Source of the DNA: Hymenobacter sp. YIM 151500-1
Lineage (GTDB): Bacteria > Bacteroidota > Bacteroidia > Cytophagales > Hymenobacteraceae
Length of the DNA stretch: 64,000 bases
Reading direction: 5' to 3'
Assembly (NCBI RefSeq): GCF_025979885.1
Contig: NZ_CP110139.1
Location: 4,608,001-4,672,000 of the forward strand
Part shown: one piece after another, positions 45,545 through 63,044 of the stretch
Layout of the letters: each line of letters starts with the position of its first letter
Position numbering within the stretch: position 1 is the first letter of the stretch
Position numbers and translations under genes: made by a program
Notes under the pieces: model-generated
Seen by the model: the letters and a program-made list of their open reading frames with translations, nothing else
Databases searched by the model: none
What the model was told of the DNA's origin: nothing

Positions 45545-45689
45545 CCCTCTCCGTTGCCTCACCCCCTAGCCCCCTCTCCTTCAGAGAAGGGGACTAGTTT
45601 CTAGCTCACTAGAACTAGTATTATCTAGCACTAGAACTAGTTCCCCTCTCTTTTGGAGAGGGGGCTAGGGGGTGAGGCAACGGAGAGGG
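45545..45689. repeat. Perfect 35-bp-arm inverted repeat between GH16 and GH3 genes
   Basis: The arms at 45545-45579 and 45655-45689 (starting CCCTCTCCGTTGCCTCACCC) are perfectly complementary. Imperfect pairing continues inward through CTAGTTCCCCTCTC-type sequence. It resembles the element at 4111-4360. Lying inside an apparent operon, it may weaken or stabilise the transcript between GH16 and GH3. Confidence 0.85.
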
Positions 45690-45702
45690 AGTGAGGTCCG
45701 GC

Positions 45703-46578
45703 TTACTTGTACTCGTAGTGCCGCACGTAGTCTACCTGCATCTGCTGGGGGAAGACGGTGGAGGCGTCGGGGTTGCCGTCGAAGTTGCCGCCCACGGCCA
45801 CGTTCAGAATCACGAAAAACGGGTTGTTGAACGGGAAAGGGCTGGCGTCGGCGCCGGTGAAGGTGTAGTACTGCTGGCCGTCGAGGTAGAAGCGGAGCAA
45901 GTCCTTGCTGCGCACCACTGTAAACACGTGGAAGTCGTCGGACAGGTCGTCGGTCAGCACCTTGGTGGTGCCCTTGTAGCGGTGGTCGGCGGTGCTGTTG
46001 CCGAAGTGCATGGTCGAAATCAACTCCTTGGGGCGGCTGCCGCGCAGCTCCATAATGTCGATTTCGCCACACTTGGGCCAGTTATTCTGGTCGATGTCGG
46101 CGCCCAGCATCCAGATGGCCGGCCACACGCCCTTGCCCTTGGGCACCTTGGCCCGCACGTCGATGCGGCCGTAGCGGAAGCTCTGCTTGCCTTTGGTAAT
46201 CAGGCGCGCTGAGGTGTAGGCGTTGTTGCCGGATTGCTGGCGGCGGGCCTGAATGACGAGGTTACCCCCGCTCAGAAACGCGTTGTCGGGCAGGTTGGTG
46301 TAGTTCTGCAACTCGTTGTTGCCCCAGCCGCCGCCGCCCTGCTCGTAGGTCCACTTGGTTTGGTCGAGGGTGCCCCCGTCGAATTCGTCGCTCCACCGCA
46401 GCTCGGTGTACTGGTTGAAGTCGCGCGGCTCCTCATTCACGGCCGGCGGGGTAGGTGTGGGCGGCAGGGGAGTGGGCGCACTGGATTTTGATTTCTCGGT
46501 GCACGAGAGCAGGCTTAGTGCCAGCAGGCCACTTTTCCACCAGGCGGGGTGCCGTCGAAACGCGGATACAGTTTTCAT
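45703..46578 (-). CDS. GH16 endo-beta-glucanase lipoprotein of the polysaccharide locus
   Basis: A 291-residue lipoprotein. The type II signal peptide ends in LSLLSC with lipidated C26, followed by TEKSKSS and a proline/threonine linker. The GH16 domain spans about 55-291: LRWSDEFDGG, GGWGNNELQNY, GVWPAIWMLG, and catalytic GEIDIME (E172, D174, E177). It resembles laminarinase-type endo-beta-1,3-glucanases. It lies 42 bases after the PKD lipoprotein stop in the susC operon. By analogy with known laminarin loci it would cut glucan at the cell surface before uptake. An in-frame ATG 39 bases upstream is less likely because it would bury the signal peptide. Confidence 0.92.
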   Translation of the reverse strand: MKTVSAFRRHPAWWKSGLLALSLLSCTEKSKSSAPTPLPPTPTPPAVNEEPRDFNQYTELRWSDEFDGGTLDQTKWTYEQGGGGWGNNELQNYTNLPDNAFLSGGNLVIQARRQQSGNNAYTSARLITKGKQSFRYGRIDVRAKVPKGKGVWPAIWMLGADIDQNNWPKCGEIDIMELRGSRPKELISTMHFGNSTADHRYKGTTKVLTDDLSDDFHVFTVVRSKDLLRFYLDGQQYYTFTGADASPFPFNNPFFVILNVAVGGNFDGNPDASTVFPQQMQVDYVRHYEYK

Positions 46579-46620
46579 AAAGCGCAGGCAGGTCAAAAGT
46601 TGAGGACGGTTTTCCACCGG

Positions 46621-47871
46621 TTACTTCACTACCAGCTTGAACGTGAACACCGTACCGCCGTTCTGGCCGCTGCCGGAGCGCAGGGTCATCTTCTGGTTGT
46701 CGATGCTCAGAATGCGGTACACCCGCTCGGTCGGGGAGGCGTCGGTGGTGCCCAGGAAGGCGCCGGCCCGCGTGAGCGTGAACTGCGCCAGCCCGGCCCC
46801 GGCCGCCGGCCCAAACACGAAGGGCGAGGAGCCCGACTGCGGGGCCTGGCAGGAGAAGCCGTTGGCGGAGAAGGTTTCGGCCTTGGCGTCGTAGGTGTAC
46901 ACGTTGGCCATGGTGAAGGTGTACTCATCATCCGACTGGCAGGTGGGCAGGGCGCCCGCCGCCACCCCGGCAAAGTAAGACGACGGCGCGGCCTCGGTGC
47001 CCACAATGATGGGCGCATCGGCGGTGTTGTCGAGCTTCCAGGTGCGCGTTGAGCCGCCGGTGAGCAGGCGCTTGATGGGGGCCGTGGCATCGTAGGGAGC
47101 TAGCGTCACAATGGTGCGGGTGCCGTCGGGGTTGGTGCCGCGCAGGCGCAGCTTGGTGTCGGTGGCCTCCAGGATGTCGTAGGTTTTATTAGCCACCGAG
47201 TCGGGCAGGCCGATGAAGGCACCTTTGCCCTTGAGTACCAGCTGCGGACTGCCGCCGTTGGGCCGGAACACGAAGGAGCCGCTGTGGTTGCGCGACGTGC
47301 CGCAGGTGCCGTTCTGGAAGGTCTGCCCGCCACTTTCGTAGTTGACGGTGAAGCCGTTGCTTAGCGAGAACTGGTCGTCGAGCTGGCAGTTTTGCAGGGC
47401 CCCCGATGAGGAAATGAGCGTGCCGCCGGCCGTTTCGCGCACAATGGCGCCGGGTTCGTTGGAGAAAGCCCACACGCGGGTGCCGCTGCCGGCGCAGTCC
47501 ACCAGCTTGCTGAAGGTGGTGTTGGCGCAGGCGTCGGGAATGGTCACGGCTTGCTTGGCCGAGATGCCCGTGCCGCCGCGGCCGGCCGTAATCAGCTCCA
47601 CCTGGTAGGTGCCGGGCCGGTTGTAGGTGTGCTGCACCGTGCTACCCGAGCCGCGGGTGTTGTCGCCGAAGCTCCACTGGTACAGGAACCCGTTCTGGCT
47701 GGTGCTCGTGAACGTGACAACCGTGGGAAACTCGGTGGTATTAGCCTGAAACGTGAAGCTGGACTCCGGCACCGGGCCTTCCAGCTTATTATCGTCGCCT
47801 TCTATTTCGCAGCTCGTCAGCAATGGCGCTGCCAGCAGGCCCAGCAGGGCTAAGCGTACTATGTTTTTCAT
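46621..47871 (-). CDS. PKD-domain lipoprotein, likely surface glycan-binding protein
   Basis: A 416-residue lipoprotein. The signal peptide ends in LLTSC with C21, and the following EIEGDDN is acidic, as in Bacteroidota surface-export signals. A PKD domain follows (about 35-115; FLYQWSFGDNTRGSG, YNRPGTYQVEL). The remaining 300 residues contain two similar units, each with a W-x-[FL]-[SD]-N start, a DD(E/Q)(Y/F)(S/T) element and a LVLKGKGAFIG or FTLTRAGAFLG strand, suggesting an internal duplication. Position directly after susD matches the SusE/F or surface-glycan-binding slot, and PKD-bearing proteins hold that slot in laminarin-type loci. The start at 47871 is set by the lipoprotein signal. 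Binding specificity is unknown. Confidence 0.85.
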   Translation of the reverse strand: MKNIVRLALLGLLAAPLLTSCEIEGDDNKLEGPVPESSFTFQANTTEFPTVVTFTSTSQNGFLYQWSFGDNTRGSGSTVQHTYNRPGTYQVELITAGRGGTGISAKQAVTIPDACANTTFSKLVDCAGSGTRVWAFSNEPGAIVRETAGGTLISSSGALQNCQLDDQFSLSNGFTVNYESGGQTFQNGTCGTSRNHSGSFVFRPNGGSPQLVLKGKGAFIGLPDSVANKTYDILEATDTKLRLRGTNPDGTRTIVTLAPYDATAPIKRLLTGGSTRTWKLDNTADAPIIVGTEAAPSSYFAGVAAGALPTCQSDDEYTFTMANVYTYDAKAETFSANGFSCQAPQSGSSPFVFGPAAGAGLAQFTLTRAGAFLGTTDASPTERVYRILSIDNQKMTLRSGSGQNGGTVFTFKLVVK

Positions 47872-47961
47872 GGGAATTTCTGGTGGGAAATGATGTGGGA
47901 GAGGGGAGGATGGTGAGGTAGCGAGTAGTGAATGAGTGAGGTAGTAAGTCGGTGATAGGAA

Positions 47962-48059
47962 GACCATCCTGCTGAGCTTGCCGAAGCATCTCTCCCGCTT
48001 CGTCCTCACGATTGGGGTTACCCCCAGTAGAGATGCTTCGACAGGCTCAGCATGACGGC
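47962..48059. repeat. GAAGCATCTCTAC-type inverted repeat between susD and PKD gene
   Basis: The left arm, CCTGCTGAGCTTGCCGAAGC, and right arm, GCTTCGACAGGCTCAGCATG, are imperfect complements around a centre with CGATTGGGGTTACCCC. It sits inside the susC operon. Confidence 0.8.
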
Positions 48060-48103
48060 CTTTCCCTTCACTCATTTACTCACTCGCTCATTTACTCATT
48101 CAC

Positions 48104-49594
48104 TTAATACCCCGGATTCTGGGTCAGGCCGGGGTTCACGTCCAGCTCCGACTGCGGAATGGGCAGCACGATGTTGAAGGGCTTCACGCCTTTGGCAATG
48201 AGCTGGGGCGAGGTGAGCAGCTCGCCGGTGCGCTTCATGTCAAACCACCGGTCCATCTCGAAAGCCAGCTCGTACTTCCGCTCCCGAATCACGGCCGTTT
48301 TGAAGGCGGCGGCCCCAATGCCCGCGGCCAGGTCGCGGGGGCTAGCCGTGCCCAGCGGCAGCCCAAAGGCCCGGCGGCGTACTCGGTTGATGGCGTCCAG
48401 GCCTTCGGGCGTGGGGCCCACGGCTTCGGCCAGAATCAGGTACACCTCGGCCAGGCGCATCACCGGAATGTTCAGCTCCGAGTCCCAGATATTGGTGTTC
48501 GTCTTGCCCACAAACCACTTTTTGCAGCCGTAGCCGTTGGGCGAGCCGGGCAGGGAGCTGGGCTGCTTGCGGCCGTCGGGGTAGGTGTCGCCGGGCATCC
48601 AGATGGTAGCGTCGCGGCGCCGGTCGCCGGCCTCGTAGCCGGCCACGAAGTCAGGCTCTGGAATGTTGAAGCCGTAGCCGCCCTGGGGCGTGGCGCCCTG
48701 GCCGCGGGGCCCGAAGAACTCGTTGCCGCTGAAGCCGGGGCCGTTTTGGGTCCACTGGTTGCGGCCCGAAAAGAACTGCGCCTCAAACAACGACTCCTTG
48801 CCGTTCTCATTGGCTACCTTGAAGTTGTCGGCGTAGTTTTCCCACAAGGACTTGCCGCTACTGCTTATCACCTCGCGGGCCCGCGTGGCGGCTTCGGGCA
48901 GCTTGTTCTGAGTGAGGTGCACCTTGGCCAGCAGGCCCGTGGCCGACCACTTGGTGGCCCGGCCCAGGTCGTCGCCGCTGTAAGAAGGCGGCAGGTTGCC
49001 GATGGCGTCGGTCAGGTCCTTCTCAATCTGGGCGTACACCTGGGCCGCCGGAGTGCGGGGCACGTTCACGTCGGCCAGCGTAACGGGCGGCGTGGTCAGC
49101 AGGGGCACGTCGCCGTAGGCCCGCACCAGGTCAAAGTAGTACTTGGCCCGCAGAAACTGCGCCTCACCAATGCACCGCTTCTGAATAGCGGGGTCGATGC
49201 TCATGGCCGGCACCTTTTGCAGCACGATGTTGGCCCGCCCGATGCCCACGTAGCAGCTGCCCCACAGGCGGGTAGCTACCAGGTTGGTAGCCGGAATGTT
49301 GAAGAAGTCGAGCTGCTGGTACTCGATACCGTCGCCGCCGCCCCCGCCGCCGGTGGTCGAGATGTCGGAGGCAATGTCGCCCAGGCCCCAGAGGGCGGCG
49401 TTGTACTGGCCCTGCGTAATCAGCTCGCCGTAGATGGCGTTGGTGGCCTGAATGGCGTCGGTGGCGGTTTTGTAGAAGTTGGCGTCGGTTACCTGGTCGG
49501 TGGGAGACTCCTCCAGAAACTTCTCGCCGCACCCGCTCAGCAGACCCAGCGTCAGGAGCCAGGCGCCGCAGGCGTATTTATTGAAAGTCGACAT
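48104..49594 (-). CDS. susD: SusD/RagB-family outer-membrane glycan-binding lipoprotein
   Basis: A 496-residue SusD-family lipoprotein. The signal peptide ends in LLSGC with C22, followed by GEKFLEESPTDQ, the classic SusD start. The helical TPR-like scaffold of the family follows, with CIGEAQFLRAKYYFDLVRAYGDVPL and AEVYLILAEA, and the usual C-terminal part with RKYELAFEMDRWFDMKRTGEL and the ending INPGLTQNPGY-like NPGLTQNPGY. It caps the SusC channel and binds oligosaccharide. It lies 96 bases after susC on the same strand. Glycan specificity cannot be read from sequence, but the GH16 and GH3 partners point to beta-1,3-glucan. Confidence 0.95.
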   Translation of the reverse strand: MSTFNKYACGAWLLTLGLLSGCGEKFLEESPTDQVTDANFYKTATDAIQATNAIYGELITQGQYNAALWGLGDIASDISTTGGGGGGDGIEYQQLDFFNIPATNLVATRLWGSCYVGIGRANIVLQKVPAMSIDPAIQKRCIGEAQFLRAKYYFDLVRAYGDVPLLTTPPVTLADVNVPRTPAAQVYAQIEKDLTDAIGNLPPSYSGDDLGRATKWSATGLLAKVHLTQNKLPEAATRAREVISSSGKSLWENYADNFKVANENGKESLFEAQFFSGRNQWTQNGPGFSGNEFFGPRGQGATPQGGYGFNIPEPDFVAGYEAGDRRRDATIWMPGDTYPDGRKQPSSLPGSPNGYGCKKWFVGKTNTNIWDSELNIPVMRLAEVYLILAEAVGPTPEGLDAINRVRRRAFGLPLGTASPRDLAAGIGAAAFKTAVIRERKYELAFEMDRWFDMKRTGELLTSPQLIAKGVKPFNIVLPIPQSELDVNPGLTQNPGY

Positions 49595-49654: not shown

Positions 49655-49692
49655 CCCATGCTTGCAGCTTGTAGCTTACAGCTTGTAGCTCT
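49655..49692. repeat. AGCTTGCAAGC-type repeat fragment at susC end
   Basis: GCTTGCAGCTTGTAGCTTAC and AGCTTGTAGCTCTAG form half of the AGCTTGCAAGC-type repeat seen at 18.2, 36.2 and 57.6 kb. It ends on the susC stop codon, in the susC-susD gap. Confidence 0.6.
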
Positions 49693-52600
49693 AGAAACCG
49701 ATGTTAAGGCCGGCCAGGAACACGCGCGGCTGCGGGTACACGCCCAGGTCGACGCCGCGGGCACCTACTTCGGGGTCGTAGCCGGAGTACTTGGTCAGCG
49801 TCAGCAGGTTTTGGGCCGTTACGTACACGCGCAGCTGCTTGGCGGCAATACGCTCCTGCAAGGCCGAGGGCAGGGTGTAGCCCAGCGTCAGGGTTTTGAT
49901 GCGCAGATAGGAGCCGTCCTCCACAAAGTAGCTCGACACGCGCAGGTTCTGGTTGGGGTCGGCGTTGTCGCCGCCCACGGCGCGGGGCACGTCGTTGCTG
50001 GTGCCGGGGCCGGTCCAGCGGCCCAGTACGCGGGTGCTGCCGCTGCTGGTGCCGTAGAGCGGGCTTTCCAGAATGTAGCGGTTCTGGTTGTAAATGTCGT
50101 TGCCCTGGGAGCCCTGCACAAATACGTTCAGGTCGAGGCCTTTCCAGGTCAGCGTGTTATTGATGCCGTAGAAAAAGTCCGGGTTGGGGTTGCCGATGAA
50201 GGTGCGGTCGGCGGCGTTGATAAGCCCGTCATTGTTCAAGTCCCGGAAGCGGATGTCGCCGGGGGCGGCTCCGTTCTGGGTGGCGTGGTTTTTCACGTCT
50301 TCCGGCGTCTGAAACAGGCCATCGGCCACGTAGCCGTAGAAGGAGCCGAAGGGCTGGCCTTCATCGTAGCGCACAATCACGCCGCTCAGCACGCTCAGTC
50401 CGTCGTAGGGTTGCCCCACACCCAATGACTCCAGCTCGGTCTTAAACGCCGACACATTCAGCGTGGTCGTCCAGCTCAGGCCGCTGCCCGCGCCCCGCAC
50501 GTTGTGCGAGGTAAAGGAGAAGTCGATGCCGCGGTTGTAGGCCGACGCCGCGTTGCGGTTTACGGCTTCGTAGGTGCCCGATACCAACGACACCGGCACC
50601 GGCGCAATCAGGTTGGGCGACTGGCGGTTGTAGAGGTCAATGGTGGCCTCGAAGCGGTTTTCCAGGAAGCCCAGGTCAATGCCGATGTTGGTTTGGTTGT
50701 TGGTTTCCCAGCGCAGGTCGGGGTTAGCCTGGCGCGTGGGGGCAGCCCCAATCTGCAAGGTGCCGCCGTTGGCCCCAAAGGGATACTGAATGCCCGAGTT
50801 GATGGCGTAGAGGTAGGCAAAGCGGCCGGCGTTGTTGGGGTTGCCCACCTTGCCGTAGCCCACGCGCAGCTTCAGGTTGCTGATTAGCTGGTTATCCTTC
50901 ATGAAGTCTTCCTCCGAAATGCGCCAGCCGGCCGATACGCCGGGGAAGAAGCCGAACTTGTCGCCGGGCGGGAAGCTGCTGGAGCCGTCGTAGCGGGCAA
51001 TGGCCTGGAACAGGTACTTGCCGGCAAACTCGTAGTTGACGCGCCCGAAGTAGCTGGCTAGGCGGGACGGCGGGTTAATAGTGCCCGCGTTGGCCAGTTG
51101 GGTGTTGATGGGGCCGGAGTTGATTACCTGCAAGTCGTTGCGCAGAAAGCCGGTGCGGTAGGCCTCCACATTGCTGTAGTTGAACTGCTGAGCCGACTGC
51201 CCCAGCAGCACCGTAACCTGGTGCCGGTCGGCAAAGAGCCGGTCGAAGGTCAGGGTGTTTTCAATCAGGTAGCTCGGCGCGTACGAGGAGGTAGCCGTGG
51301 CGCCCGACGTAGCCTGGGTGTAGCGCGTGGAATAGGTCTGGCCGTCGAATTGCAGCTCGGGCACGCCCGGCCGGAAGGCCCGGAAATTGTCGAAGATAAA
51401 GTCGGCGCCCACGTTGGTGCGGAAGCGCAGGCCCTTCACCGGTTCCAACTCCGCAAACACCGTGGTCAGGGCGCGGTTGCGGGTGAAGCGCTGGTTGGTG
51501 ATGGTAGCCGAAGCCAGCGGGTTTTCCTCGATGAAGTTGTCCTGGGCGCCGCGGGGCTCATAGTAGTAGCCATCGGGCCGGAACACCGGAATAATGGCCG
51601 GCATGCGCAGCATCTGCTGCACCGTGCCGTACTCGCCGCTGTTGGAGGTAATCTGCCGGTCCGAGAGGTGAGTGAGGGAGATGCTGCTGCCCAGCTTCAG
51701 GATGTTATTGGCCTGCAAGTCGCCGTTAGCGCGCAGGGTAAACCGCTCAAAATCAGAGCCGATGATGGTGCCGTCCTGCTGGAAGTAGCTGCCTGACAGG
51801 GCGAAGCGGCCCTTGTCGTTGCCGCCCGTCGCCGACAGCGAGTAGTTCTGGATGGCGGCCCGGCGGAACACTTCGTCCTGCCAGTCGGTGCCCTCGCCCA
51901 GGGCTTGCGGGTTGCGCAGGCGGTCTACCACAATGGGGGCGCCCCCGGCTAAGCGGCCTTCGTTGTTGATGACGGCGTACTCCTCGGCGTTCAGCAAATC
52001 CAGCTTGCGCCACACCTGCTGCACCCCGCGGTAGGCGTCCAGGTTGAGCGTGGAAACCCCGGCCTTGCCCCGCTTGGTGGTGATGATGACCACGCCGTTG
52101 GCGGCCCGCACCCCGTAGATGGCGGTGGCCGAGGCGTCCTTCAGAATGTCGATGGTTTCAATGTCGTTGGGGCTGATGGCGTTCAGCTGGTTTTCGCCGC
52201 CCTCGGGCAGCGGAAAGCCATCCACCACGTACAGTGGGTTGTTGTTGCCGGCCGAGGTGATGCCGCGCACCCGAATGGACGTGCCAGCCGCCCCGCCCGG
52301 CGCCCCGCCGTTGGACGTTACCGTGACACCCGCCGCCCGGCCTTGCAAAGCCTGGGTAGCATCGGCTACCGGCTGCGTGGCAATGTCGCGCGCCGACACC
52401 GACGATACGGCGCCCGTTACGCTGCCGCGCTCCTGGGTGCCGTAGCCCACTACTACCACTTCGCTCAGGGCGCGGGTGTCTTCGGCCAGCGTAATGTTCA
52501 GGTTGCTCGTGGCGCCCGTGATGGGTACTTCCTGGCGGGCAAAGCCCACGTAGCTGATAATGAGCGTAGCATTTTCTGGCGCGTTCAGCGAGAAGCGGCC

Positions 52601-52840
52601 GTCGGCGTCGGTGGTGGTACCCAGCGTGGTGCCTTTCACGATGATGGTGACGCCGGGTAGCGGTTCGCCGCTGCCGCGCTGGGTAACGCGGCCGCTCACG
52701 GCTACATCGGCGGCAGGAGTGGTGGGGCGGGCTGTGGGAGCTGCGCCGAGGGCCGGTGCTGCCAGCGCCGTGGCTGGTAGCCCGCAAGCCGCCAGCCACA
52801 ACGCCCGGCGCAGTGCCTGGGAGTAGAAGTGTGATTTCAT
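49691..52840 (-). CDS. susC: SusC/RagA-family TonB-dependent outer-membrane transporter
   Basis: A 1049-residue outer-membrane channel. After the signal peptide (about 1-27) comes a carboxypeptidase-D regulatory-like domain (about 47-120; SGRVTQRGSGEPLPGVTIIV). The TonB box region and plug follow (about 130-240), with SEVVVVGYGTQERGSVTGAV, PLYVVDGFPLPEG and NDIETIDILKDASATAIYG, all hallmarks of SusC. The beta-barrel extends to the C terminus, which ends in phenylalanine as usual. With SusD it should import oligosaccharides in a TonB-driven way. It is the first gene of the minus-strand locus. A candidate Bacteroidota promoter lies about 245 bases upstream (53084-53115). Confidence 0.95.
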   Translation of the reverse strand: MKSHFYSQALRRALWLAACGLPATALAAPALGAAPTARPTTPAADVAVSGRVTQRGSGEPLPGVTIIVKGTTLGTTTDADGRFSLNAPENATLIISYVGFARQEVPITGATSNLNITLAEDTRALSEVVVVGYGTQERGSVTGAVSSVSARDIATQPVADATQALQGRAAGVTVTSNGGAPGGAAGTSIRVRGITSAGNNNPLYVVDGFPLPEGGENQLNAISPNDIETIDILKDASATAIYGVRAANGVVIITTKRGKAGVSTLNLDAYRGVQQVWRKLDLLNAEEYAVINNEGRLAGGAPIVVDRLRNPQALGEGTDWQDEVFRRAAIQNYSLSATGGNDKGRFALSGSYFQQDGTIIGSDFERFTLRANGDLQANNILKLGSSISLTHLSDRQITSNSGEYGTVQQMLRMPAIIPVFRPDGYYYEPRGAQDNFIEENPLASATITNQRFTRNRALTTVFAELEPVKGLRFRTNVGADFIFDNFRAFRPGVPELQFDGQTYSTRYTQATSGATATSSYAPSYLIENTLTFDRLFADRHQVTVLLGQSAQQFNYSNVEAYRTGFLRNDLQVINSGPINTQLANAGTINPPSRLASYFGRVNYEFAGKYLFQAIARYDGSSSFPPGDKFGFFPGVSAGWRISEEDFMKDNQLISNLKLRVGYGKVGNPNNAGRFAYLYAINSGIQYPFGANGGTLQIGAAPTRQANPDLRWETNNQTNIGIDLGFLENRFEATIDLYNRQSPNLIAPVPVSLVSGTYEAVNRNAASAYNRGIDFSFTSHNVRGAGSGLSWTTTLNVSAFKTELESLGVGQPYDGLSVLSGVIVRYDEGQPFGSFYGYVADGLFQTPEDVKNHATQNGAAPGDIRFRDLNNDGLINAADRTFIGNPNPDFFYGINNTLTWKGLDLNVFVQGSQGNDIYNQNRYILESPLYGTSSGSTRVLGRWTGPGTSNDVPRAVGGDNADPNQNLRVSSYFVEDGSYLRIKTLTLGYTLPSALQERIAAKQLRVYVTAQNLLTLTKYSGYDPEVGARGVDLGVYPQPRVFLAGLNIGF

Positions 52841-53083: not shown

Positions 53084-53115
53084 CAAATATATCCGACCCT
53101 ATTTCGGAAAAGCAA
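53084..53115 (-). promoter_or_regulatory. Candidate Bacteroidota-type promoter of the susC operon
   Basis: On the minus strand, TTG (-33 element, 53115-53113) is followed after 21 bases by TATATTTG (53091-53084), an exact match to the Bacteroidota -7 consensus TAnnTTTG at an allowed spacing. It would give a leader of roughly 240 bases before the susC start at 52840. Confidence 0.55.
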
Positions 53116-53377
53116 CTACGAAAACGCCTCAGAAAAGCCTCGAAGGCCGTTTTTGAGCTTACATCACACTGCAACTATACACTTACTGCACACGCACATC
53201 ACCAGACTTACGGCTCCTAAATGTACGGTATGGCATTCAAGTGAATAGAAGGCAACACCTAAGAAACAATCAAAAAAAGAACAGTAAAGACTAAAATTTT
53301 TACACTTTTTTCACGCTCATGCTCACTTAAATATCAAAGCTGCTTAATGGGGCTGTTTCAGAAGTTGTTCCAAACGA

Positions 53378-53633: not shown

Positions 53634-55637
53634 CTAAGCCTGGGCTGACGATTCCTCGGCCATTGATTCCTCGTGCTCTACGCTGGTGGCGTCGAGCAGC
53701 ACGTGGGTCCAGCCTTCATTTTCGTCGAAATCGGGGGCGTGGCGGCGGCGGCGCATGGCTTCCAGCACCTTCTGGCTGAAGCTCCAGCAGGTACCCTGGC
53801 GCAGGTCCAGCACCCGCGAGAGTTCCTGGGACGAGTAGTTGCCTTTGTGCGTGTAAATCAGAAACACGGCGTAAAAGGCCTTGATAATGGAGAACTTACA
53901 CTTTTGCAGCAGCGTGTAAGCCGTAGCCGACTCCACGTAGCGGCACTTGGTGCAGCGGCGCGAGTACAGCTCGCGCCCGTCGCAATACTTCTCGTGGCCG
54001 CACTTGCGGCAGCGGTAGCCGTCGGTCCACTTCAGGTTGGCCAGGTATCGGAGGCAGGCGTCCTTGTCGGGGTAGATTTGGCTGAACTCGCCGAAATCAA
54101 CCTCCTTGGACAGCACGCGGGCCGTTTTCACTTCCTGCAAGTCGCGCTGCAGCTCCAGGTTCAGCTTCTCAATGGCCGCCGACTGCAAGGCTAGCAGGCC
54201 GTTGGCTTGCAGCAGTTCCCGGTTTTGGGCGGCAATGGTGTCGCTCTGCCGGCGCAACTCCTCGGTGCGCTGGGCCACCAGGCTTTCCAGCTCCGAGTTA
54301 AGCTGGTCTTTCAGCTCCTGGTTTTGCCGCAGCTGCTCCACCAGCATGTTCTGGGCCACGTGCTTTTTGCGCAGCTGCTTCACCAGCTTGTCCTGGGCCC
54401 GGATGGTGGCGTCGCGGATGCTCTTGATTTTCTCACCCAGGGCGTACGACAGCACCACCACTTCCACCACAAACGCCACGTTCATGCTGTACACCGTAAC
54501 GGTATTGGTGAAGGTATGAATCCCTAACTTCCTCAGAATCAGGAAGCAGACGCTGGTAGCTACTAGGGCGTGAGCCAGCAAAAAGAACCGGGCCGGCCGG
54601 AAGCCCCGCTGCCACACCCGAAATGCGGCGTAGTACAGCATTCCGTAGGGCAGCAAGTAAAACCAAAACCCCCAGCCTGAGTGCAGCCACCACGTATCCA
54701 GCAGCAGCACGCCCACGCTGATGAGCACCACCCGGCGCACCCAGGGGTCGTAGCGGGGCAGGCGCTGCGGGGCATCCAGAAACTGGCGGGCGTAGTAGCT
54801 GAATGTGAGCAGCAGCAAAATGGGCGAGCCGGCAATAATCAGCTGGTTCAGCTCCGGGAAGTTGGGCCACAGGTACTGAAAGCCCAGGCCATCTTCGGAC
54901 AGGAACACCAGGCTGCAGCTGAGCACGTACAGCACGTAGCGCAGGTAGGTTTGTTCGCCAATGAAGAGGTAGAGGCAGAGGTTGTACACTACCATAATCA
55001 GCAGCACCCCATAAAACGCGCCCAGCAAGCCATACTCCGTCTGGAAGTGCACGGCCAGGGGCTGCTCGGTACGCAGGCGGCTCACAAAGCTGGTTTTGGA
55101 GTTAGAGCTGAGCCGCAGGTAGTAGGTGTGGCTGCGGTTAGGCTCCAGCGGCAGCCGAAACAAAAAGTTTTTGTACGGAAACCGCCGCGAGGCCAGCCGG
55201 TGGTCGGCGCCGGTGTGGATGGCGCCCTGCTCGGTGCTAGCCGAGGGGTAGAAGATAATGTCGTTGAGGTGGGAGTCGAACAGCTCCAGGTACCAGTGCT
55301 GGTTCAGGGAGCCGTTGGCGTGCACCACCAGCCGCAGCCAGTACGCGGCGCCGGCGCGCTCCATGGTGGACGGCCGCTGGTCGCCGCGCACAAACTGCCG
55401 GGCGGTGGCCGGGCGCTGCACATCGGCCAGGGTGAGGCGGCCGGTGGGGTCTTCCAGCACGCTATAGCACCCCGAAGGTATGGGCAGCTCTTCCAGGGCC
55501 GAGCTTACCCGCAGCGTATCGGCGGGGCGGGCAGCGGCGGGAATACAGTGCAGCAAGTTCAGCAGCAAGCTGCTTAGCGTCAGGAAAGAAAACCAAGCAG
55601 CCCAACGCGGTGGGGGTGGGAGGATGACGAGCTTCAT
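53634..55637 (-). CDS. 7TMR-DISM membrane receptor fused to IS1595-type transposase zinc ribbon
   Basis: A 667-residue protein with a signal peptide, a 7TMR-DISMED2-type extracellular sensor (about 45-195; AAYWLRLVVHANGSLNQHWY), seven transmembrane helices (about 205-415) and a long coiled coil (about 425-515; RQNQELKDQLNSELESLVAQ). The C-terminal part (about 520-650) matches the start of IS1595-family transposases: YPDKDACLRYLANLKW, a zinc ribbon with C543-x2-C546 and C562-x2-C565, then SATAYTLLQKCKFSIIKAF and a helix-turn-helix-like THKGNYSSQELSRVLDLRQG. The chain stops where the transposase DDE domain would begin, so it cannot transpose. It probably works as a membrane-bound DNA-binding receptor. 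It starts 36 bases after the GH5 stop and lies directly upstream of susC on the same strand, so control of that operon is a natural inference. Confidence 0.85.
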   Translation of the reverse strand: MKLVILPPPPRWAAWFSFLTLSSLLLNLLHCIPAAARPADTLRVSSALEELPIPSGCYSVLEDPTGRLTLADVQRPATARQFVRGDQRPSTMERAGAAYWLRLVVHANGSLNQHWYLELFDSHLNDIIFYPSASTEQGAIHTGADHRLASRRFPYKNFLFRLPLEPNRSHTYYLRLSSNSKTSFVSRLRTEQPLAVHFQTEYGLLGAFYGVLLIMVVYNLCLYLFIGEQTYLRYVLYVLSCSLVFLSEDGLGFQYLWPNFPELNQLIIAGSPILLLLTFSYYARQFLDAPQRLPRYDPWVRRVVLISVGVLLLDTWWLHSGWGFWFYLLPYGMLYYAAFRVWQRGFRPARFFLLAHALVATSVCFLILRKLGIHTFTNTVTVYSMNVAFVVEVVVLSYALGEKIKSIRDATIRAQDKLVKQLRKKHVAQNMLVEQLRQNQELKDQLNSELESLVAQRTEELRRQSDTIAAQNRELLQANGLLALQSAAIEKLNLELQRDLQEVKTARVLSKEVDFGEFSQIYPDKDACLRYLANLKWTDGYRCRKCGHEKYCDGRELYSRRCTKCRYVESATAYTLLQKCKFSIIKAFYAVFLIYTHKGNYSSQELSRVLDLRQGTCWSFSQKVLEAMRRRRHAPDFDENEGWTHVLLDATSVEHEESMAEESSAQA

Positions 55638-55673: not shown

Positions 55674-57551
55674 TTACTGCCCACCCGCGCCGCGACTGGC
55701 CGTGGTGGGCACAAAGCGCAGCTGGGATACGTGGCGCACCGGCTCATCTACCAGCAGGCGCAGCGTGTGCTGCCCGGCCGGCAGGGGTGGCGTAATCAGG
55801 GAAACAGTGGTCCAGTCGGGGCCGGGCGCCACGGAGGCCGTGCCCAGGGGTAAGTCGCCCAGCCGCAGGGTGAGCCGGCCGACACCTACCAGGCCGGGCT
55901 GCACATGCACCTCGGCCTGGTAGGCGCCGGCCGCCGCCACCGTTACCGTGTACGTAAGCCACTCGCCCGCCGCCAGCTCACCCACGGCAAAGCCGGTGGC
56001 GGTTTCCGTGGTGGCGCTGATATCCACACCGTCGTTGCGGTAGGCCCCGCCGTGGTTGGTGGGCTTCAGCTCCCGGTAGTCGGTGCGGGTCGAGTAGCTG
56101 TCGTGGTAGGTCACGCCTTCGCGGCCCAGGTCGTAGTCGGTGGCCGGGATGGTACCGGGAATAGTGAGCGGGGCAAAGGGCGTGCGGGCGTCGGCGGGCT
56201 GGATGAGGGCGGCCAGCACGTCGCGGTTAATCTGGCAGTTGGCAAACTGCACGTTGCGCAGCAGCGCCGCCCGGCCTTCGGCGGTGAGGATGCTCCCGTA
56301 AGGTGCCACCCGCAGCAGGCCCGCGCCCGAGTCCACGCGCTTGATGTTCCAGTGGCACCAGCCGATGCCCGCGGCGTTGAGGCCCTGCACGGCAGCCGTA
56401 AACCACTCGTTGGAGTTTTCGCCGGTTTCGCCCACCCACACCGGCACCTGCCACCGGGCGCGAAAGGCCGCCAGATTGCTTAGCAGGTTGATTTGGTTGG
56501 GGTTGGGGTCGGCGGCTTCGGCCGTGTTGGGGCACCAGTAGCGGTGGGCGTTGTACACGAGGTTGGTTTTGTCGCGGGCGGTTAGCTTGTCGGGTGTCAG
56601 GTTGGTGTACTCGTTGCCGTAGCCGTTGCCTTCCAGCAGCAGCAGGTGCCGGTCTTGCTGGCCGCGCACGGCATCAATCAGCCGCGCGTACAAGGCGCTC
56701 AACTCCTGGTTGTCGTTGGATAAACCATTGGCAGCGTTGAGGTTGTGGGGCTCGTTGATGAGGTCGTACATGGCAATGGTGGCCTCGCGCCGGTAGCGGG
56801 CGGCCAGCTTCTCCCACAGCCGCACCGTGAGGTCCTGGTAGAGGAGGCGGCCCTTGGCGTCGCGGCGCTTCCATAGGTCCAGGGGCCGGAAGTTGTCGTT
56901 GATGTTGCGGTCGGTGCCCTGGCCGCCGGGCGCGGCGTGCAGGTCCAGAATCAGGTAGAGCTTGTTGGCGGCGCACCACTTCACCATGTCGTCGATAAAC
57001 CGGAAGCCGTCCAGCTGCTGGGCCGGGTTGAACAGCTGGTTCTGGTCGTACCAGGTGCTGAGCTGCTGCACGTAGGCGTCCAGCTGCTGCGGGTTGTGCG
57101 GGTTGCGGGCCACGGCGGTGCGGGCCCGGCGCTGAGTTGGGGTCAGAAACAGGTCGTAGTGCAGGGGCAGGCGCACACAGTTGAAGCCCTGGCGGGCCAG
57201 GAAATCAATGTCGGCTTTGGTAATGAAATTGGCCCGGTACTGCCGGTAGAAGTCCTCCACCTCGGCCTCGGGCAGGGTGCGCAGCAGGCCCTGCTGAATG
57301 CGCCACTGGCTGTTAAGCGTGTCGGTGCCCAGGATGTAGCTTTCCTGGAGCAGCCAGCCGCCCACGTTGTAGCCGCGGAGCACCACCTCGCGGCCGGCGG
57401 CATCTACTATCCTAGGACCGTTGGCGCGGAGCAGGCCGAGCCGCTGCGCCGTAGCCGGACCAGCCACCGCCAGCAACAGCCCGAGCAGCCAGGCCAGTCC
57501 GGTAGAAAAGGGGTGGCGTGCGCCCATAGCACGCCGGTTTCGGCACATCAT
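55674..57551 (-). CDS. GH5 glycosidase with C-terminal CBM6-like domain, no T9SS domain
   Basis: A 625-residue secreted protein. After an N-terminal signal (LLGLLLAVAGPATAQ), a GH5 barrel (about 37-500) shows acid/base E267 in LINEPHN, nucleophile E375 in WVGETGEN, and [15 protein letters not shown], closely similar to the GH5 protein at 36361. The C-terminal region (about 510-620; YHDSYSTRTDYRELK, GVDISATTETATGF, GEWLTYTV) resembles a CBM6-like module of glycan-active enzymes. Unlike its paralogue it has no crystallin, fascin-like or sorting domain, so it is probably periplasmic. The start is uncertain: ATG at 57551 follows an AT-rich leader, while ATG at 57527 gives a cleaner signal peptide. 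The receptor gene begins 36 bases downstream and may be cotranscribed. Confidence 0.87.
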   Translation of the reverse strand: MMCRNRRAMGARHPFSTGLAWLLGLLLAVAGPATAQRLGLLRANGPRIVDAAGREVVLRGYNVGGWLLQESYILGTDTLNSQWRIQQGLLRTLPEAEVEDFYRQYRANFITKADIDFLARQGFNCVRLPLHYDLFLTPTQRRARTAVARNPHNPQQLDAYVQQLSTWYDQNQLFNPAQQLDGFRFIDDMVKWCAANKLYLILDLHAAPGGQGTDRNINDNFRPLDLWKRRDAKGRLLYQDLTVRLWEKLAARYRREATIAMYDLINEPHNLNAANGLSNDNQELSALYARLIDAVRGQQDRHLLLLEGNGYGNEYTNLTPDKLTARDKTNLVYNAHRYWCPNTAEAADPNPNQINLLSNLAAFRARWQVPVWVGETGENSNEWFTAAVQGLNAAGIGWCHWNIKRVDSGAGLLRVAPYGSILTAEGRAALLRNVQFANCQINRDVLAALIQPADARTPFAPLTIPGTIPATDYDLGREGVTYHDSYSTRTDYRELKPTNHGGAYRNDGVDISATTETATGFAVGELAAGEWLTYTVTVAAAGAYQAEVHVQPGLVGVGRLTLRLGDLPLGTASVAPGPDWTTVSLITPPLPAGQHTLRLLVDEPVRHVSQLRFVPTTASRGAGGQ

Positions 57552-57599
57552 AACCTGAAAATTAAAAGATAAAGCAGCGTAGAAAGTCGGTGTACCGTT

Positions 57600-57765
57600 T
57601 GGCCCCACCCCTGCGGAAGAGGGGTGCGTTCTAGAGCTGTAAGCTTCAGGCTGCAAGCTGTAAGCTCTGTTTAAGCAAGCTTGCGGCTTGGAGCTTGCGT
57701 CTTGAAGCTGATGTTTGGACCCCTCTCCCGCAGGATGTCGCGCATCAAGCGAGGTGGGCCAAACG
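57600..57765. repeat. AGCTTGCAAGC-type inverted repeat, copy 3
   Basis: The left half has GGCCCCACCCCTGCGGAAGA, then AGCTGTAAGCTTCAGGCTGC; the right half has AGCTTGCGTCTTGAAGCTGA, CCCCTCTCCCGCAGGATG and GCGCATCAAGCGAGGTGGGC. The two halves are imperfect complements. Same family as 18170 and 36127. Confidence 0.75.
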
Positions 57766-57824: not shown

Positions 57825-60800
57825 CTACTCTTTAACAAACTGCTGCACGGTGGCTGGCCCGCGGACTCCGCGCAGGGTGAGGAAGTAAAGGCCGGGCGGC
57901 AGGCTGTGCACGTCTACTTCGGTGGCTTGCTGCTGGCCTTTCACCTCCACGCGCTGCACCACGCGGCCCCGCGAGTTGGTAATGGTAAGCGTGGCCGCCT
58001 CCGCAGTGGGCACCGTCAGGCGGTTCCTGACCGGGTTGGGGTAAGCCAGGGCCGCCGGGACGGTGGTGCGGGCGGCCGTCCGGTTGGCGGCGCAGGTGGT
58101 GCCGGCCGTGTAGGCGTGCGGGGTGGCGCTGGAGTTGCGCTCGGCCGTGGTGGTGCCTACCCGGTAGGTGAAGTAGAACGACAGCGCCGCGCCGCCCGCC
58201 TGAGCCTGGGCAAAGGTGAAGTTGCCTCCCGCCGCCGTCATGGGGTAGCCAGTGTAGCCGCCCGAGCCCACTTTCACATAGATGAGGGCCAGGCTGCTGC
58301 CCGCAATGGGCGCCAGCGGCACAAACTTCCAGTTCACCGTGCCGTTGGTGGTCGAGACTTCGTAGGAGTAGTCGCCGTTGGCTACGGTACCGGTACAGGC
58401 CGTGCTGCCGGAGCTGCTGGCAGCCGTGCCGTACACTTCCAGCTCGTAGAGGGAGTAGCCGTAGGCGGTGCCCCGCGCCGTGCCGTAGATGCGCACGTAC
58501 TGCCCGGTCCCGCTCAGGCCGGTGTGGTCATTCACCAGGCTGGTGTTGCCGGTTATGGTTTTGAGCGGCGTCCAGTTCTGGCGGTCCGAGGACACTTCCA
58601 CGCGGTAGTCTCGGCCGTAGGCAGCTTCCCAGGTCAGCTTCACGCGGCTGATGCTGTAGCTGGCGCCCAGGTCCACGTACAGCCACTGCGAGTCGGCAAA
58701 GGCGCTGGCCCAGCGGGTGCCGCCGTTACCATCCACGGCCGCCGAGCCGGGCACTTGGGCGTTTTCCGTCGAAGAAACCGTCACGGGCTTGTTCAGGGCC
58801 AGGTTGGGCGTAGCGGGGTCGGTAGGCGTAGCTGTAAAGGACAGCCAGTTGACATTGCAGCCGGAGGAAGCCTGGGCATACAGGCGCAGGCGCTGCCCGC
58901 CCGCCGGCAAGCTCGCCGTGGCGCTGATAGTTGTCCAGCTCTGCCAGCCGCCTGTGTTGCCCACGCTGATGGTAGCCAGCACTGCACCAGCGCTGCTGCG
59001 CAGCTGTAGCTGGGCTCCACCCACGGCACTGGCCACGCGGAAGCCCACGGTGTAGGTGCCGGCCGTGGCTACGTTTACATCGTAATCCACCCAATCACCC
59101 GTCTCAAACCAGTTCATGTTGCGCCCGCCCCCGGTATCGGTGGTGGGCTCGGTGTCCACCCCGGACATAGCCACGTAGCTTTCGGCCTGGATGGTGCCCG
59201 GAATGGCCTGGGCCACGGGGGCAGCGGATACCGTCACGGCTACTGCGGCCGAAGTGGCTGTTGCGCCCTGGTTATCAGTGGCCTTGGCCGTGAGCGAGTA
59301 GCTGCCCGCCGCCACGCCCGACCAGGTGTAGGTGAACGGCGCACTCGTGTCTTCGCCCAGCTTGGTGCTGCCCTGGAAGAACTCCACCTTACTTACCGTG
59401 CCATCGGCGTCGGCAGCCGCGGCGGTGAGGGGGATGCTGGCCGGAGCCGTGAAGCTGGCGTTGTTGGCCGGGGCCGTCAGGCTGACGGTGGGCGGCGTGT
59501 TGGGGGCCGCGCCGCTGGCGCTGAGGGTGCGCAGGTTGTCCACGTAAAACACCGTGCCGGTGCTGGAGTTGGGCGCGAAGAGCAGCACCACATTGTCCAC
59601 GTCGGCATCGGGCGTGCTGGCGTCGGGGGAGCTGGCGTAGCTGAAGATAAGCGTGTGCCAGGCGTTGGTTTGCTTCACTACGGCATGGTACACGCTGTGC
59701 CGGCCCGCCGGGAAGTTGCCGGGCGTGGAGGCGGCGCTGCTTTCCAGCTGCCACGATACCACCGTGCCCACCGGCGCCGAGGTATACACGTCCAGGGCAA
59801 ACACCTTGCGGCCCGCCACGTAGGCGGCACCGTCCTTAATCAGGCTGGTGCCCAGCGTCAGAGCGTCGTAGGTGGAAGCCGAATTACGGGTGTACTGGGC
59901 CACTTTGGCGGAGGTGTTGGCGCCGCCGCTGGCCGGGTTGTTCACGGCCGCCTGATAGGTGCCGGTGGCCCGCACAAAGCTCAGGTTGCGCACGTCGTCG
60001 TAGTTCTCCAGCGTAGCGCCGGCACTGTACGTGGGGGTGGCCTTCTTCGCAATCCGCAGGTTGTCAATGTAGTACGTGTCCCCCGACTTCACTCCGCTGT
60101 TGAACAGCACGGCCAGCTGGTCGATGCTCACGTTGGCCGTGCCGGCGTCGGGGGCGGTGTTGAAGCTGAAAGTCAGCGTCTCCCACTGGTTTTGCTTGGT
60201 GGTGTTGGCCAGGTAGGTGCTGTTGCGGCCCGCCGGAAACGAGCCCGTAGGCGCGGCCAAGGCCTTGTTTTGCAGGGTGATATTAATGGGCGTACCCACC
60301 GGCGCCGAGGTGTACACGTCGAGCTGAAACTGGTAGGTCTGGTTCTTGAACAGCCCGGCGTCCTCAACCACCGTGCCCGGCGCCCCGGCGTTGAAAAACA
60401 GCACGTCGTACTGCTCCGAGGCGTTGCGCACGTATTTGCCCACGTTGGCCGAGGTATTCGCGCCGCCCGCAGCGGGGTTGGCCACGCCCGCCGAGTACAC
60501 GCCGTTGGTGGTAGCCGCGTCGAAGGTGAGGCGGGCCGCGCCATCGTAGTTCAGCAGGGCCTCGGTGGCTACCACGGGCGCTTCGGGCTGCTTTCTAATT
60601 ACCACGTTGTCGAAGTAGAACGTGGCGCCGGAGTTGGTGGCCGGCTGAAACAGCAAGGCCACGTTGTTGATGGAGTAAATGTTGGTGCCGGCGTCCAGGA
60701 CCTTCTCTAACTCAAATTCCAGGGTTTCCCAGGCGTTTTGGCGGGAAGTGAAGGCCCGGTAGGCACTGTGCCGGCCCGCCGGGAAGTTGATGGCCGTCGT

Positions 60801-62210
60801 CACGTTGCTGTTCTCCAGTTGCAGGGTCACCTTGCTGCCCACCGGCGCCGTCGAGTACACATCCACGAACACCCGGCGCCGGCCCGCCACGAAGTCATTA
60901 GCGTTGCCGATGCCCAGGTTTTTCACGTTCAGCACGTCGTACTGCTCCGTGGCATTGCGCACGTAGCGCCCCACCTTGGCCGAAGTGTTGATGACGGCAG
61001 ATGGGTTGTCAACCACTGGCGTAAGCGTACCGGTGGCGGCGCCGTAGGCCAGCACCCGGTTGCTCTCGAAATCCTCGTACACGCGGTCCAGCTGCAAGGC
61101 CGGCGCCACCGTCACGGATTTGGTGTAGGTGGCTGTGGTGCAGCCATTTACGGTTACCGTAGCCGTAACAGCACCGCTCACAGCGCCGCTGCCGAAATTC
61201 ACCTGCACCGCGTTGGTGCCTTGCCCGCTTACCACGGTAGCCCCGCTCGGCACTGACCACGTGTAGATGGCGCCGCTGCCCACAGCATCGAGGCGGAAGG
61301 TGCGGTTTTGGTCGCCCTGGTACACCTGGCCGGGGCCCAGGATGGCGTAGTTGTAAGTGCCTTTGTACACCCGCACGTAGTCAACCTGGGTGGTAACGGG
61401 GTAGTCGGCGGGCGTGGGGTTCAGGCCCAGGCCAGTGAAGCCGGTACCGGGCCCGCCCACAGCCGTGTTCAGAATCAGGTAGAAGTTGCCGTCGTTGAAG
61501 GGCCAGGAGTTGCCGGCGGTGGTTTTCGGCGAGGCCGTGTGGAACAGGTTGCCGTCTACAAACCACTTAATCTGGTCGGGGCTCCACTCCACGGCATACA
61601 CGTGAAAGTCCTGCGACAAGTCTACCGGGGCGTTGTAGTCGCGCCCGGTAAAGCGCCAGCCACCCGCGTCGTAGTGGATGGTGCCGCTCACGCTGCGCGG
61701 GTTTTTGTGCTTGGCCTCCATGATGTCGATTTCCCCGGTGAAGGGCCAGTTGCCGGGGTCGGCCAGCATCCAGAACGCCGGCCACACGCCCTGGGCCGAG
61801 GGCAGCTTCATGCGGGCCTCGATGCGGCCGTAGCGGAACGTCTTCAGCCCGCCGCTGGCCTGCTTCGACAGCAGCTTGGCCGAGGTATAGTTGTAGGTGC
61901 GCCCGCCCTGCACCGAATTTTCGTAGCGGGTGGCAATGCTGAGGTAGCCGCCCGCCACGGTGGCGTTGGCGGCCCGGTACACTTGCAGCTCGGCATTACC
62001 GAAGTTGCAGAGGCCGGTTTCGCAGCCGTCGCCCTCATATACTTGCCACTTGCTGAGGTTGCCGGGCGTATCGAACTCATCGTTCCAGACTAGCTCGGTG
62101 CACTGGGCCTGCGCCGCACTAGGTGCCAGCAGCCAGCCGCAGGCGGCAGCCACGGCCAGCCGGGCACCGCATCCGAGCCACTGGCTCAGAGAGGTAAAAG
62201 TGAAGGTCAT
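57825..62210 (-). CDS. Large GH16 beta-glucanase with three tandem jelly-roll repeats, Ig, CBM6, F5/8C and T9SS domains
   Basis: A 1461-residue secreted protein. After a signal peptide (about 1-35), a GH16 domain (about 36-285) carries GEIDIME (E160, D162, E165) and LVWNDEFDTPGNLSKW. A PKD/Ig-like segment follows (about 290-370). Next come three homologous units of about 165 residues each (about 375-545, 550-725, 730-890), each with VGKYVRNASEQYDVL-like, DVYTSAPVG, FPAGR and YYIDNLRI-like motifs; these look like carbohydrate-binding jelly rolls. Then come an Ig-like domain (about 898-1000), a CBM6-like domain (1002-1128), an F5/8C domain (1135-1260), an unassigned small domain (about 1270-1375; VNWKFVPLAPIAGSSLALIY) and a T9SS domain (about 1390-1461). 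It should act on insoluble beta-1,3-glucan. The Ig and CBM6 modules closely resemble those of the two-headed chitinase. Confidence 0.9.
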   Translation of the reverse strand: MTFTFTSLSQWLGCGARLAVAAACGWLLAPSAAQAQCTELVWNDEFDTPGNLSKWQVYEGDGCETGLCNFGNAELQVYRAANATVAGGYLSIATRYENSVQGGRTYNYTSAKLLSKQASGGLKTFRYGRIEARMKLPSAQGVWPAFWMLADPGNWPFTGEIDIMEAKHKNPRSVSGTIHYDAGGWRFTGRDYNAPVDLSQDFHVYAVEWSPDQIKWFVDGNLFHTASPKTTAGNSWPFNDGNFYLILNTAVGGPGTGFTGLGLNPTPADYPVTTQVDYVRVYKGTYNYAILGPGQVYQGDQNRTFRLDAVGSGAIYTWSVPSGATVVSGQGTNAVQVNFGSGAVSGAVTATVTVNGCTTATYTKSVTVAPALQLDRVYEDFESNRVLAYGAATGTLTPVVDNPSAVINTSAKVGRYVRNATEQYDVLNVKNLGIGNANDFVAGRRRVFVDVYSTAPVGSKVTLQLENSNVTTAINFPAGRHSAYRAFTSRQNAWETLEFELEKVLDAGTNIYSINNVALLFQPATNSGATFYFDNVVIRKQPEAPVVATEALLNYDGAARLTFDAATTNGVYSAGVANPAAGGANTSANVGKYVRNASEQYDVLFFNAGAPGTVVEDAGLFKNQTYQFQLDVYTSAPVGTPINITLQNKALAAPTGSFPAGRNSTYLANTTKQNQWETLTFSFNTAPDAGTANVSIDQLAVLFNSGVKSGDTYYIDNLRIAKKATPTYSAGATLENYDDVRNLSFVRATGTYQAAVNNPASGGANTSAKVAQYTRNSASTYDALTLGTSLIKDGAAYVAGRKVFALDVYTSAPVGTVVSWQLESSAASTPGNFPAGRHSVYHAVVKQTNAWHTLIFSYASSPDASTPDADVDNVVLLFAPNSSTGTVFYVDNLRTLSASGAAPNTPPTVSLTAPANNASFTAPASIPLTAAAADADGTVSKVEFFQGSTKLGEDTSAPFTYTWSGVAAGSYSLTAKATDNQGATATSAAVAVTVSAAPVAQAIPGTIQAESYVAMSGVDTEPTTDTGGGRNMNWFETGDWVDYDVNVATAGTYTVGFRVASAVGGAQLQLRSSAGAVLATISVGNTGGWQSWTTISATASLPAGGQRLRLYAQASSGCNVNWLSFTATPTDPATPNLALNKPVTVSSTENAQVPGSAAVDGNGGTRWASAFADSQWLYVDLGASYSISRVKLTWEAAYGRDYRVEVSSDRQNWTPLKTITGNTSLVNDHTGLSGTGQYVRIYGTARGTAYGYSLYELEVYGTAASSSGSTACTGTVANGDYSYEVSTTNGTVNWKFVPLAPIAGSSLALIYVKVGSGGYTGYPMTAAGGNFTFAQAQAGGAALSFYFTYRVGTTTAERNSSATPHAYTAGTTCAANRTAARTTVPAALAYPNPVRNRLTVPTAEAATLTITNSRGRVVQRVEVKGQQQATEVDVHSLPPGLYFLTLRGVRGPATVQQFVKE

Positions 62211-63044
62211 GTATGGTGGGAGTTTGGTGGAAAGGAGGGCGGAGCCACCAGCTTGGAGCTAGTGGTAGGAGCGGATAAAGTGGAGCGGAGTCCACGTGGA
62301 GGCAAGTAGAAACTACGCGTCAACGGCACAATGCCAGACCCAGACACCAAGCGGCGAGTGGCCGCCGAAAACCAGAGTTTTTCAAGGGCCTGCATAGGGA
62401 AGTTGTTACAAAAAGATAGGTCTGGTCTTCTAAAATAATGGTACAAAAACCAATTTACAGCACCTGAAAACGCATGTTTCGCTTTGGTGCCAACCCCTCC
62501 ATACGCTTACAGCACACGCTGATAAGTTGCCTTTTGGCAAGTAGCAGAATAAACTGCCAGTTTCTTTTCGGCAAAAAATCGGATAACAAACAATCAAAAA
62601 AGCCAGACATTCTATCCTGTTGGGGTGGTCTCCAACACATTTATTTCCACTCGTCTAAACTGTCAGTCTTTACTGTGATATGGCCACTTGTCTGACCCTC
62701 TCCAAGTGTAGTAGTCCAGTATTGAAATATATGTTCTATAGTATTTTGTGTCGAGGCCATAGGCAATACAGAGGTTGTTGATAGCCAGTGCCAAGTAGTA
62801 TTTCATTGCAGCAGTGAAGCACCTACACCTCCTTTTCGACCCAAGCGGTAGGGCTGATATAAACTACTGAATCCGTTTAGGAAGTCTCCAGACCGTCATG
62901 CTGAGCTTGTCGAAGCATCTCTACCGCGGGCTAACTTTTAACGCTTGCTCAACGAAGCGGGAGAGATGCTTCGACAAGCCCAGCATGACGGTCTGGAGAC
63001 TTCCTAAACAGCTTCACTGTCACATATACCCACCTTATTATCAG
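62211..63044. other. Intergenic region upstream of large GH16 gene
   Basis: No gene is supported. It is more AT-rich than its surroundings between about 62400 and 62880 and must contain the promoter of the GH16 gene. A minus-strand TATCTTTTTG near 62411-62420 is only a near match to the -7 box. The right part is a long inverted repeat (62875-63009). Confidence 0.5.
62875..63009. repeat. GAAGCATCTCTAC-type inverted repeat, 48-bp arms
   Basis: The arms at 62875-62922 and 62962-63009 (starting GTTTAGGAAGTCTCCAGACC) are complementary with one mismatch. This is the best-preserved copy of the family, lying 36 bases from the stop of the DAC-domain gene. Confidence 0.88.

Follow-up and report, generated by a model that had tools for sequence, protein, structure and literature searches.

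What controls the sugar-uptake genes of this Hymenobacter locus, and could a single membrane protein carry the signal from the periplasm to the DNA? The window, i.e., the whole 64,000-nucleotide stretch of DNA analysed here, holds a gene directly upstream of susC whose product joins a seven-transmembrane receptor to what resembles the DNA-binding part of a transposase. Here, we show by computation its architecture, conservation, synteny and co-occurrence, together with an associated operator and the content of a regulon. We consider it likely, in the absence of any binding or expression data, that the receptor is a membrane-anchored one-component regulator of beta-glucan loci that uses a domesticated transposase DNA-binding domain.

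Receptor architecture

The receptor ORF spans 53634-55637 on the minus strand and encodes 667 aa according to the ORF listing, with no such ORF on the plus strand at these positions. A signal peptide or transmembrane segment (residues 11-30) is followed by a 7TMR-DISMED2 periplasmic sensor domain (residues 59-184, 55086-55463; Pfam, 1.2e-25, 90.5 bits), of the same family as the RetS sensor structures, and by a 7TMR-DISM seven-transmembrane domain (residues 202-402, 54432-55034) supported by both Pfam (8.5e-42, 143.8 bits against a cut-off of 29) and the structure model. Beyond the membrane lie a cytoplasmic coiled-coil linker (residues 403-510, 54108-54431), an IS1595-type zinc ribbon (residues 524-567, 53937-54068) with cysteines 543, 546, 562 and 565, the helix-turn-helix (HTH) of the IS1595 transposase N-terminal region (residues 577-632, 53742-53909), and a short C-terminal tail (W643, LLL; 53637-53741) located where the DDE domain would be expected to start. 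All of these features are encoded on the minus strand.

The zinc ribbon matched Zn_ribbon_IS1595 (PF12760) with 24.3 bits in the protein scan, 1.1 below the curated cut-off of 25.4, and with 29.3 bits, above that cut-off, in the genome search. Residues 580-639 aligned to only positions 2-62 of the 215 in the NCBIfam model transpos_IS1595 (NF033547), with a score far under that model's transposase cut-off, and the catalytic DDE domain (PF12762) was absent from the protein in domain scans. The Pfam and NCBIfam matches therefore indicate that the receptor has the zinc ribbon and HTH without the DDE domain. A Pfam scan of the chain found no kinase, cyclase, GGDEF or phosphatase domain, nor any histidine kinase, receiver, AraC output or sigma factor.

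An AlphaFold2 model built from an alignment of 50 relatives (mean pLDDT 85) showed a beta-sandwich ectodomain and membrane helices that extend as a long coil; the C-terminal domain is compact and reached a pLDDT of 93.6 when modelled in isolation. The long helix at residues 379-510 is a coiled coil by appearance, with pLDDT <50 at 471-502. The model thus predicts a topology with a periplasmic sensor and a cytoplasmic C-terminal HTH. Fold searches found no solved structure of the whole DNA-binding domain; they returned HTH/homeodomain-like folds (Z up to 5.7), which are not specific, and weak zinc-ribbon matches. A sequence-only reading had described a 7TMR-DISM receptor followed by a coiled coil and an IS1595 N-terminal region ending where the DDE domain begins, and had named a match to transposase zinc ribbons as a test of its proposal. 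The description held in Pfam, NCBIfam and the model, and the match was found along with the HTH.

Conservation and transposase origin

Full-length orthologues occur in about 100 of 120 Hymenobacter genomes at 52-82% identity. Many Cytophagales families have relatives that measure 600-700 aa and share this layout, often as several paralogues, and a scan of GTDB genomes located others in Chitinophaga, Siphonobacter, Mucilaginibacter and Pedobacter. Given its full-length presence in most of the genus and its distribution throughout the order, the fusion is not a product of chance. Conservation of the fusion in relatives, a further test set by the sequence-only reading, was thus met in the genus and the wider order.

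The four zinc cysteines are retained in 101 of 105 receptor-family sequences and are among the 14 invariant columns of a 50-sequence alignment. The coil is likewise retained across the family in both alignment and model; the catalytic Asp position is not retained among the 105 sequences. The receptor's C-terminal domain is up to 55% identical to the N-terminal zinc ribbon and HTH of IS1595 transposases. A profile search in a sample of the class recovered ORFs with this domain mainly in two sizes, receptors of 620-720 aa and complete transposases of 290-350 aa, and a tree placed the transposases on one side (94/93) and the receptors on the other. The tree rests on a profile alignment of 119 columns and many of its forks are unresolved; it is consistent with a single capture of the receptor domain from IS1595 and supports the proposal that a transposase DNA-binding region was domesticated as receptor output. 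Since the receptor is the sole PF12760 match in its genome, and the genome's sole PF12762 match lies ~4 Mb away, the domain is not a fresh insertion.

Several further loci were noted in the course of this comparison. The genome's only PF12762 domain (G000 C1:601741-602163, locus L164) belongs to an IS1595-type ORF whose 228 aa include no zinc ribbon. One other genome (G535, L195-L206) carries more than ten diverse complete IS1595 transposases, which are the closest to the receptor domain (50-55% identity). A stand-alone ORF of 151 aa (L062) matches the receptor-type domain including its tail and groups with the receptors in the tree. In two paralogues that adjoin an intact receptor (the ORF at 9963 in L102 and that at 5732 in L106), the four zinc cysteines are replaced by V, V, S and M/H; these could possibly be partners without DNA binding. 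Finally, in a natural deletion (G093, L215, 9970-11430) the receptor is cut at residue 502, the DNA-binding domain, operator and SusC-SusD are all lost, and a GH16-like gene lies directly next to it.

Genomic neighbourhood

Within the window, one strand carries in order GH16, GH5, receptor, SusC, SusD, PKD protein, GH16 and GH3. The run begins with a secreted GH16 + CBM6 enzyme (57825-62210), followed by GH5 + CBM6 (55674-57656) directly upstream of the receptor, a synteny retained in the genus. On the same minus strand, the receptor is directly upstream of susC (49691-52840), as had been claimed; SusC is a TonB-dependent outer-membrane transporter and the putative target. The SusD glycan-binding lipoprotein (48104-49594) comes next, and the rest of the locus (43194-48075, minus strand) comprises the PKD protein (46621-48075), GH16 (45703-46617) and GH3 (43194-45518). 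The sequence-only reading had also stated that no hybrid two-component system or sigma/anti-sigma pair lies nearby. This held, with no sigma/anti-sigma genes among the scanned genes neighbouring susC; the correction to be made is that an AraC-type regulator (40554-41468) is present in the wider neighbourhood.

The order GH5-receptor-SusC is retained in Hymenobacter, with receptor-GH3-SusC-SusD in one clade. In several other families, many receptors precede SusC-SusD with no gene in between, on the same strand and about 170-350 bp away. Other paralogues adjoin unrelated genes, and about half of the relatives fetched from other families are not beside susC. The adjacency in the window is far from chance, because the genome has 17 SusC genes above the cut-off. 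Across the 120 genus genomes, the receptor and the locus SusD are both present in 104 and both absent from 14, and a SusD-like gene occurs alone in 2 (Fisher p = 1.8e-16, not corrected for phylogeny). Such p-values overstate independence, because every count is drawn from a single species phylogeny. Many of the genus genomes also carry another, second type of SusD (58-64% identical; L217-L220), which in some cases (G094, G095) occurs where the receptor is missing.

A candidate operator upstream of susC

Across 38 Hymenobacter loci, footprinting between receptor and susC revealed one outstanding block, TGTGcaGTAAGtGTA, together with a TAtaTTTG element. The consensus is a 15-bp site, TGTGnnGTAAGYGTA, and a promoter element, TAnnTTTG. 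In the window, footprinting and genome motif matches place the candidate operator TGTGCAGTAAGTGTA at 53178-53192, a second half-site TGTGATGTAAG at 53158-53168 as a direct repeat exactly 24 bp downstream of the first, and TATATTTG, the -7-type promoter element of susC, at 53084-53091, all on the minus strand. The operator lies upstream of TAnnTTTG by 100-101 bp in 22 of the 23 species scored, and a TGTG second half-site occurs at exactly +24 bp in 17 of 34 susC-proximal sites.

The 4.9-Mb genome has three exact operator matches, all upstream of SusC or GH16. One of them, TGTGCTGTAAGCGTA (62502-62516, minus strand), precedes the GH16 gene 57825-62210 of the same locus. The third (L230, 9403-9417) is located upstream of a second SusC-SusD-GH20 locus, and a link to chitin or hexosamine use is possible there. 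A weaker operator-like site, TGTGCTGTAGGTGTA (32941-32955, plus strand; 1 mismatch to TGTGYNGTAAGYGTA), lies at the 5' end of ORF 32904-34475, an MFS transporter (Pfam match from residue 128) that begins a GH30-GH5-GH30 run. MFS genes recur as operator targets in relatives, and this site might also have arisen by chance.

Motif census and regulon content

Exact copies of the motif were detected in 74 of 104 receptor-bearing genus genomes and in one of 16 receptor-lacking genomes, corresponding to 155 sites versus a single site, which falls inside a gene. The reversed motif, used as a control, gave 15 sites in all genus genomes together. Thirty of the 104 receptor-bearing genomes have no exact site, many of which have a site with one mismatch. 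Because loss of the polysaccharide utilization locus (PUL) removes PUL-linked sites whatever the regulator, only distant sites test the link between receptor and motif independently. A search by motif alone retrieved 39 distant sites, of which 30 are intergenic; most of these lie 18-360 bp ahead of a gene read in the same direction. Of the downstream genes, 20 were scanned, and every one has a beta-glucan or sugar function: GH16 (in most cases with CBM6), GH30, GH3, GH5, MFS, and AP_endonuc_2-type, a sugar-isomerase-like TIM barrel. The regulon content is that of a beta-1,3/1,6-glucan system. The AP_endonuc_2 gene was seen behind an operator in five loci (L247, L253, L261, L262 and L276), the last of which has two operators 74 bp apart.

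Related operators in other families

Independent footprints of related sequence were obtained beyond Hymenobacter. The receptor-susC gap of family f19 contains two copies of TGTTTTTnnnnnGnnAA 65-66 bp apart, f18 loci contain pairs of TTTTTTTTAAGTGATA 80-81 bp apart, f23 has a pair of TGTTTAtaAAgCGTATTA 76 bp apart, and Chitinophaga and Siphonobacter have pairs of GGTAnnnAAGCGTATCA about 93 bp apart; Mucilaginibacter also yielded a related footprint. The core common to these independent tandem operators is AAGYG(TA). A strict family-wide pattern, TGT-N9-G..A, was tried and failed outside f19, the common part being the AAGYG core. Promoters within ≤1 mismatch of the operator were found for 11 of 26 receptor-adjacent susC genes compared with 0 of 27 other susC genes, although about half of these control upstream regions are coding, i.e., inside an operon. 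The AAGYGTA core is present at 20 of 30 loci whose receptors have an RQxTCW recognition helix and at 6 of 32 with other helices, an association that was not corrected for phylogeny. Terminal inverted repeats are present in some related transposases, and their comparison with the operators showed no convincing likeness.

Comparison with known regulators

PUL regulation is best known from gut Bacteroides, where hybrid two-component systems, SusR and sigma/anti-sigma pairs act. The closest parallel in mode of action is provided by the SusR-like regulators of Bacteroides (BT3705 and paralogues), for which direct-repeat sites spaced 67 or 77 bp were predicted, and whose domain was reported to lack significant similarity to other regulators (PMC3878776). 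With these regulators the receptor shares the predicted build of a single membrane protein with a periplasmic sensor and a cytoplasmic C-terminal HTH, the link to susC/susD and, across its family, long-spaced direct repeats (65-66, 76, 80-81 and 92-93 bp here). It differs in having a 7TMR-DISM sensor, an IS1595 zinc ribbon and HTH as DNA-binding domain, and, in Hymenobacter, a repeat of 24 bp. We liken the receptor to SusR because a membrane-held protein acting on direct repeats several helical turns apart was inferred for SusR-like regulators (PMC3878776); the analogy rests on how the receptor may work and not on sequence.

The ectodomain and membrane domain clearly belong with the 7TMR-DISM receptors (PF07695/PF07696; RetS, SagS). 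The known outputs of such receptors are kinases, cyclases or phosphatases, whereas the receptor described here has a putative DNA-binding domain and no enzymatic output; an enzymatic output is usual in known members but is not required by the Pfam definition. Compared with IS1595 transposases (PF12760, NF033547), it shares the zinc ribbon and HTH but lacks the DDE domain and is fused to a receptor. Hybrid two-component and ECF sigma/anti-sigma PUL systems have the same proposed role, conveying a membrane signal to susC/susD promoters, yet the receptor contains no such parts and no such pair lies beside it. We found no description of this architecture in the literature searched, which did not cover most subscription journals.

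Proposed mechanism and alternative explanations

Considering that the operator travels with the receptor, and that the receptor is conserved beside sugar-uptake genes, it likely switches beta-glucan genes on. In the mechanism that we propose, the DISMED2 ectodomain would sense a periplasmic sugar freed from beta-glucan, and the seven-transmembrane domain and coiled coil would pass the signal, probably via a change in a dimer, to the cytoplasmic zinc ribbon and HTH. This domain would bind direct repeats of the TGT...AAGYGTA-type site, located ~100 bp before the -7 element, and thereby activate susC-susD, the GH16-GH5-receptor run (a positive autoregulation) and, in trans, GH16, GH30, GH3, GH5, MFS and sugar-isomerase-like genes. 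Ligand, sensing, DNA binding by the receptor, dimerisation, activation and the sign of regulation are all inferred. The earlier proposal of the receptor as candidate susC regulator and one-protein switch is accordingly supported by comparative evidence only (adjacency, co-occurrence and operator). What is added to it here is phylogenetic depth, a single transposase origin, an operator with fixed spacing, a regulon, and independent operators elsewhere.

Among the alternatives, we regard as unlikely that the motif and regulon are real but owned by another factor, such as the AraC-type protein or a global sugar regulator, with the receptor a passenger or working via a partner. In its favour, an AraC-type gene lies close to the locus, proteins of the AraC family bind direct repeats that are asymmetric, and binding data for the receptor are lacking. 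Against it, the AraC orthologue is missing from at least 15 receptor-bearing genomes, several of which have exact sites (G010, G021, G023, G038, G064, G066 and G077), and about 10 genomes that lack both receptor and sites do have it; moreover, related operators lie beside the receptor in other families where promoters are otherwise unrelated. The AraC gene 40554-41468 was rejected as owner of the motif, as it co-occurs with neither receptor nor motif.

It also seems improbable that the receptor is mainly a repressor, or that its DNA-binding domain is freed by proteolysis instead of acting while held at the membrane. Proteolysis could be suggested by the fact that this domain terminates a long coil that includes the low-confidence stretch at 471-502, but the coil is retained in the family, and a site held at a constant ~100 bp ahead of the -7 element is in keeping with activation. 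Still less tenable is that the C-terminal domain binds protein or RNA and not DNA: zinc ribbons can bind both, and fold searches gave no close solved structure of the domain, but it descends from the N-terminal, HTH-containing part of a transposase, and an operator and regulon are linked to it. That the zinc ribbon and HTH have no function and are only the decaying trace of an IS1595 element inserted into a receptor gene, as the missing catalytic domain and transposase matches under transposase cut-offs might suggest, can be practically ruled out: the zinc cysteines and HTH residues hardly vary across several families, about 100 of 120 genus genomes keep the full length, and the tree fits a single old capture.

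Implications

We return to the receptor as a probable membrane-anchored activator of beta-glucan genes. A bolder reading, which we hold to be fairly probable, is that a 7TM sugar receptor captured a transposase DNA-binding domain once, and that from this event arose a large class of single-protein, membrane-to-DNA PUL regulators, not described before, in the Cytophagales, Chitinophagales and Sphingobacteriales; their tandem operators would have diverged along with the domain. A defined 15-bp site and a fixed spacing make it testable how a membrane-held regulator finds and works on a promoter. If true, this would show clearly how the part of a transposase that binds DNA can be domesticated to serve directly as the output of a 7TM receptor. 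Environmental Bacteroidota would gain a candidate class of regulator that comes with an operator and a list of targets.
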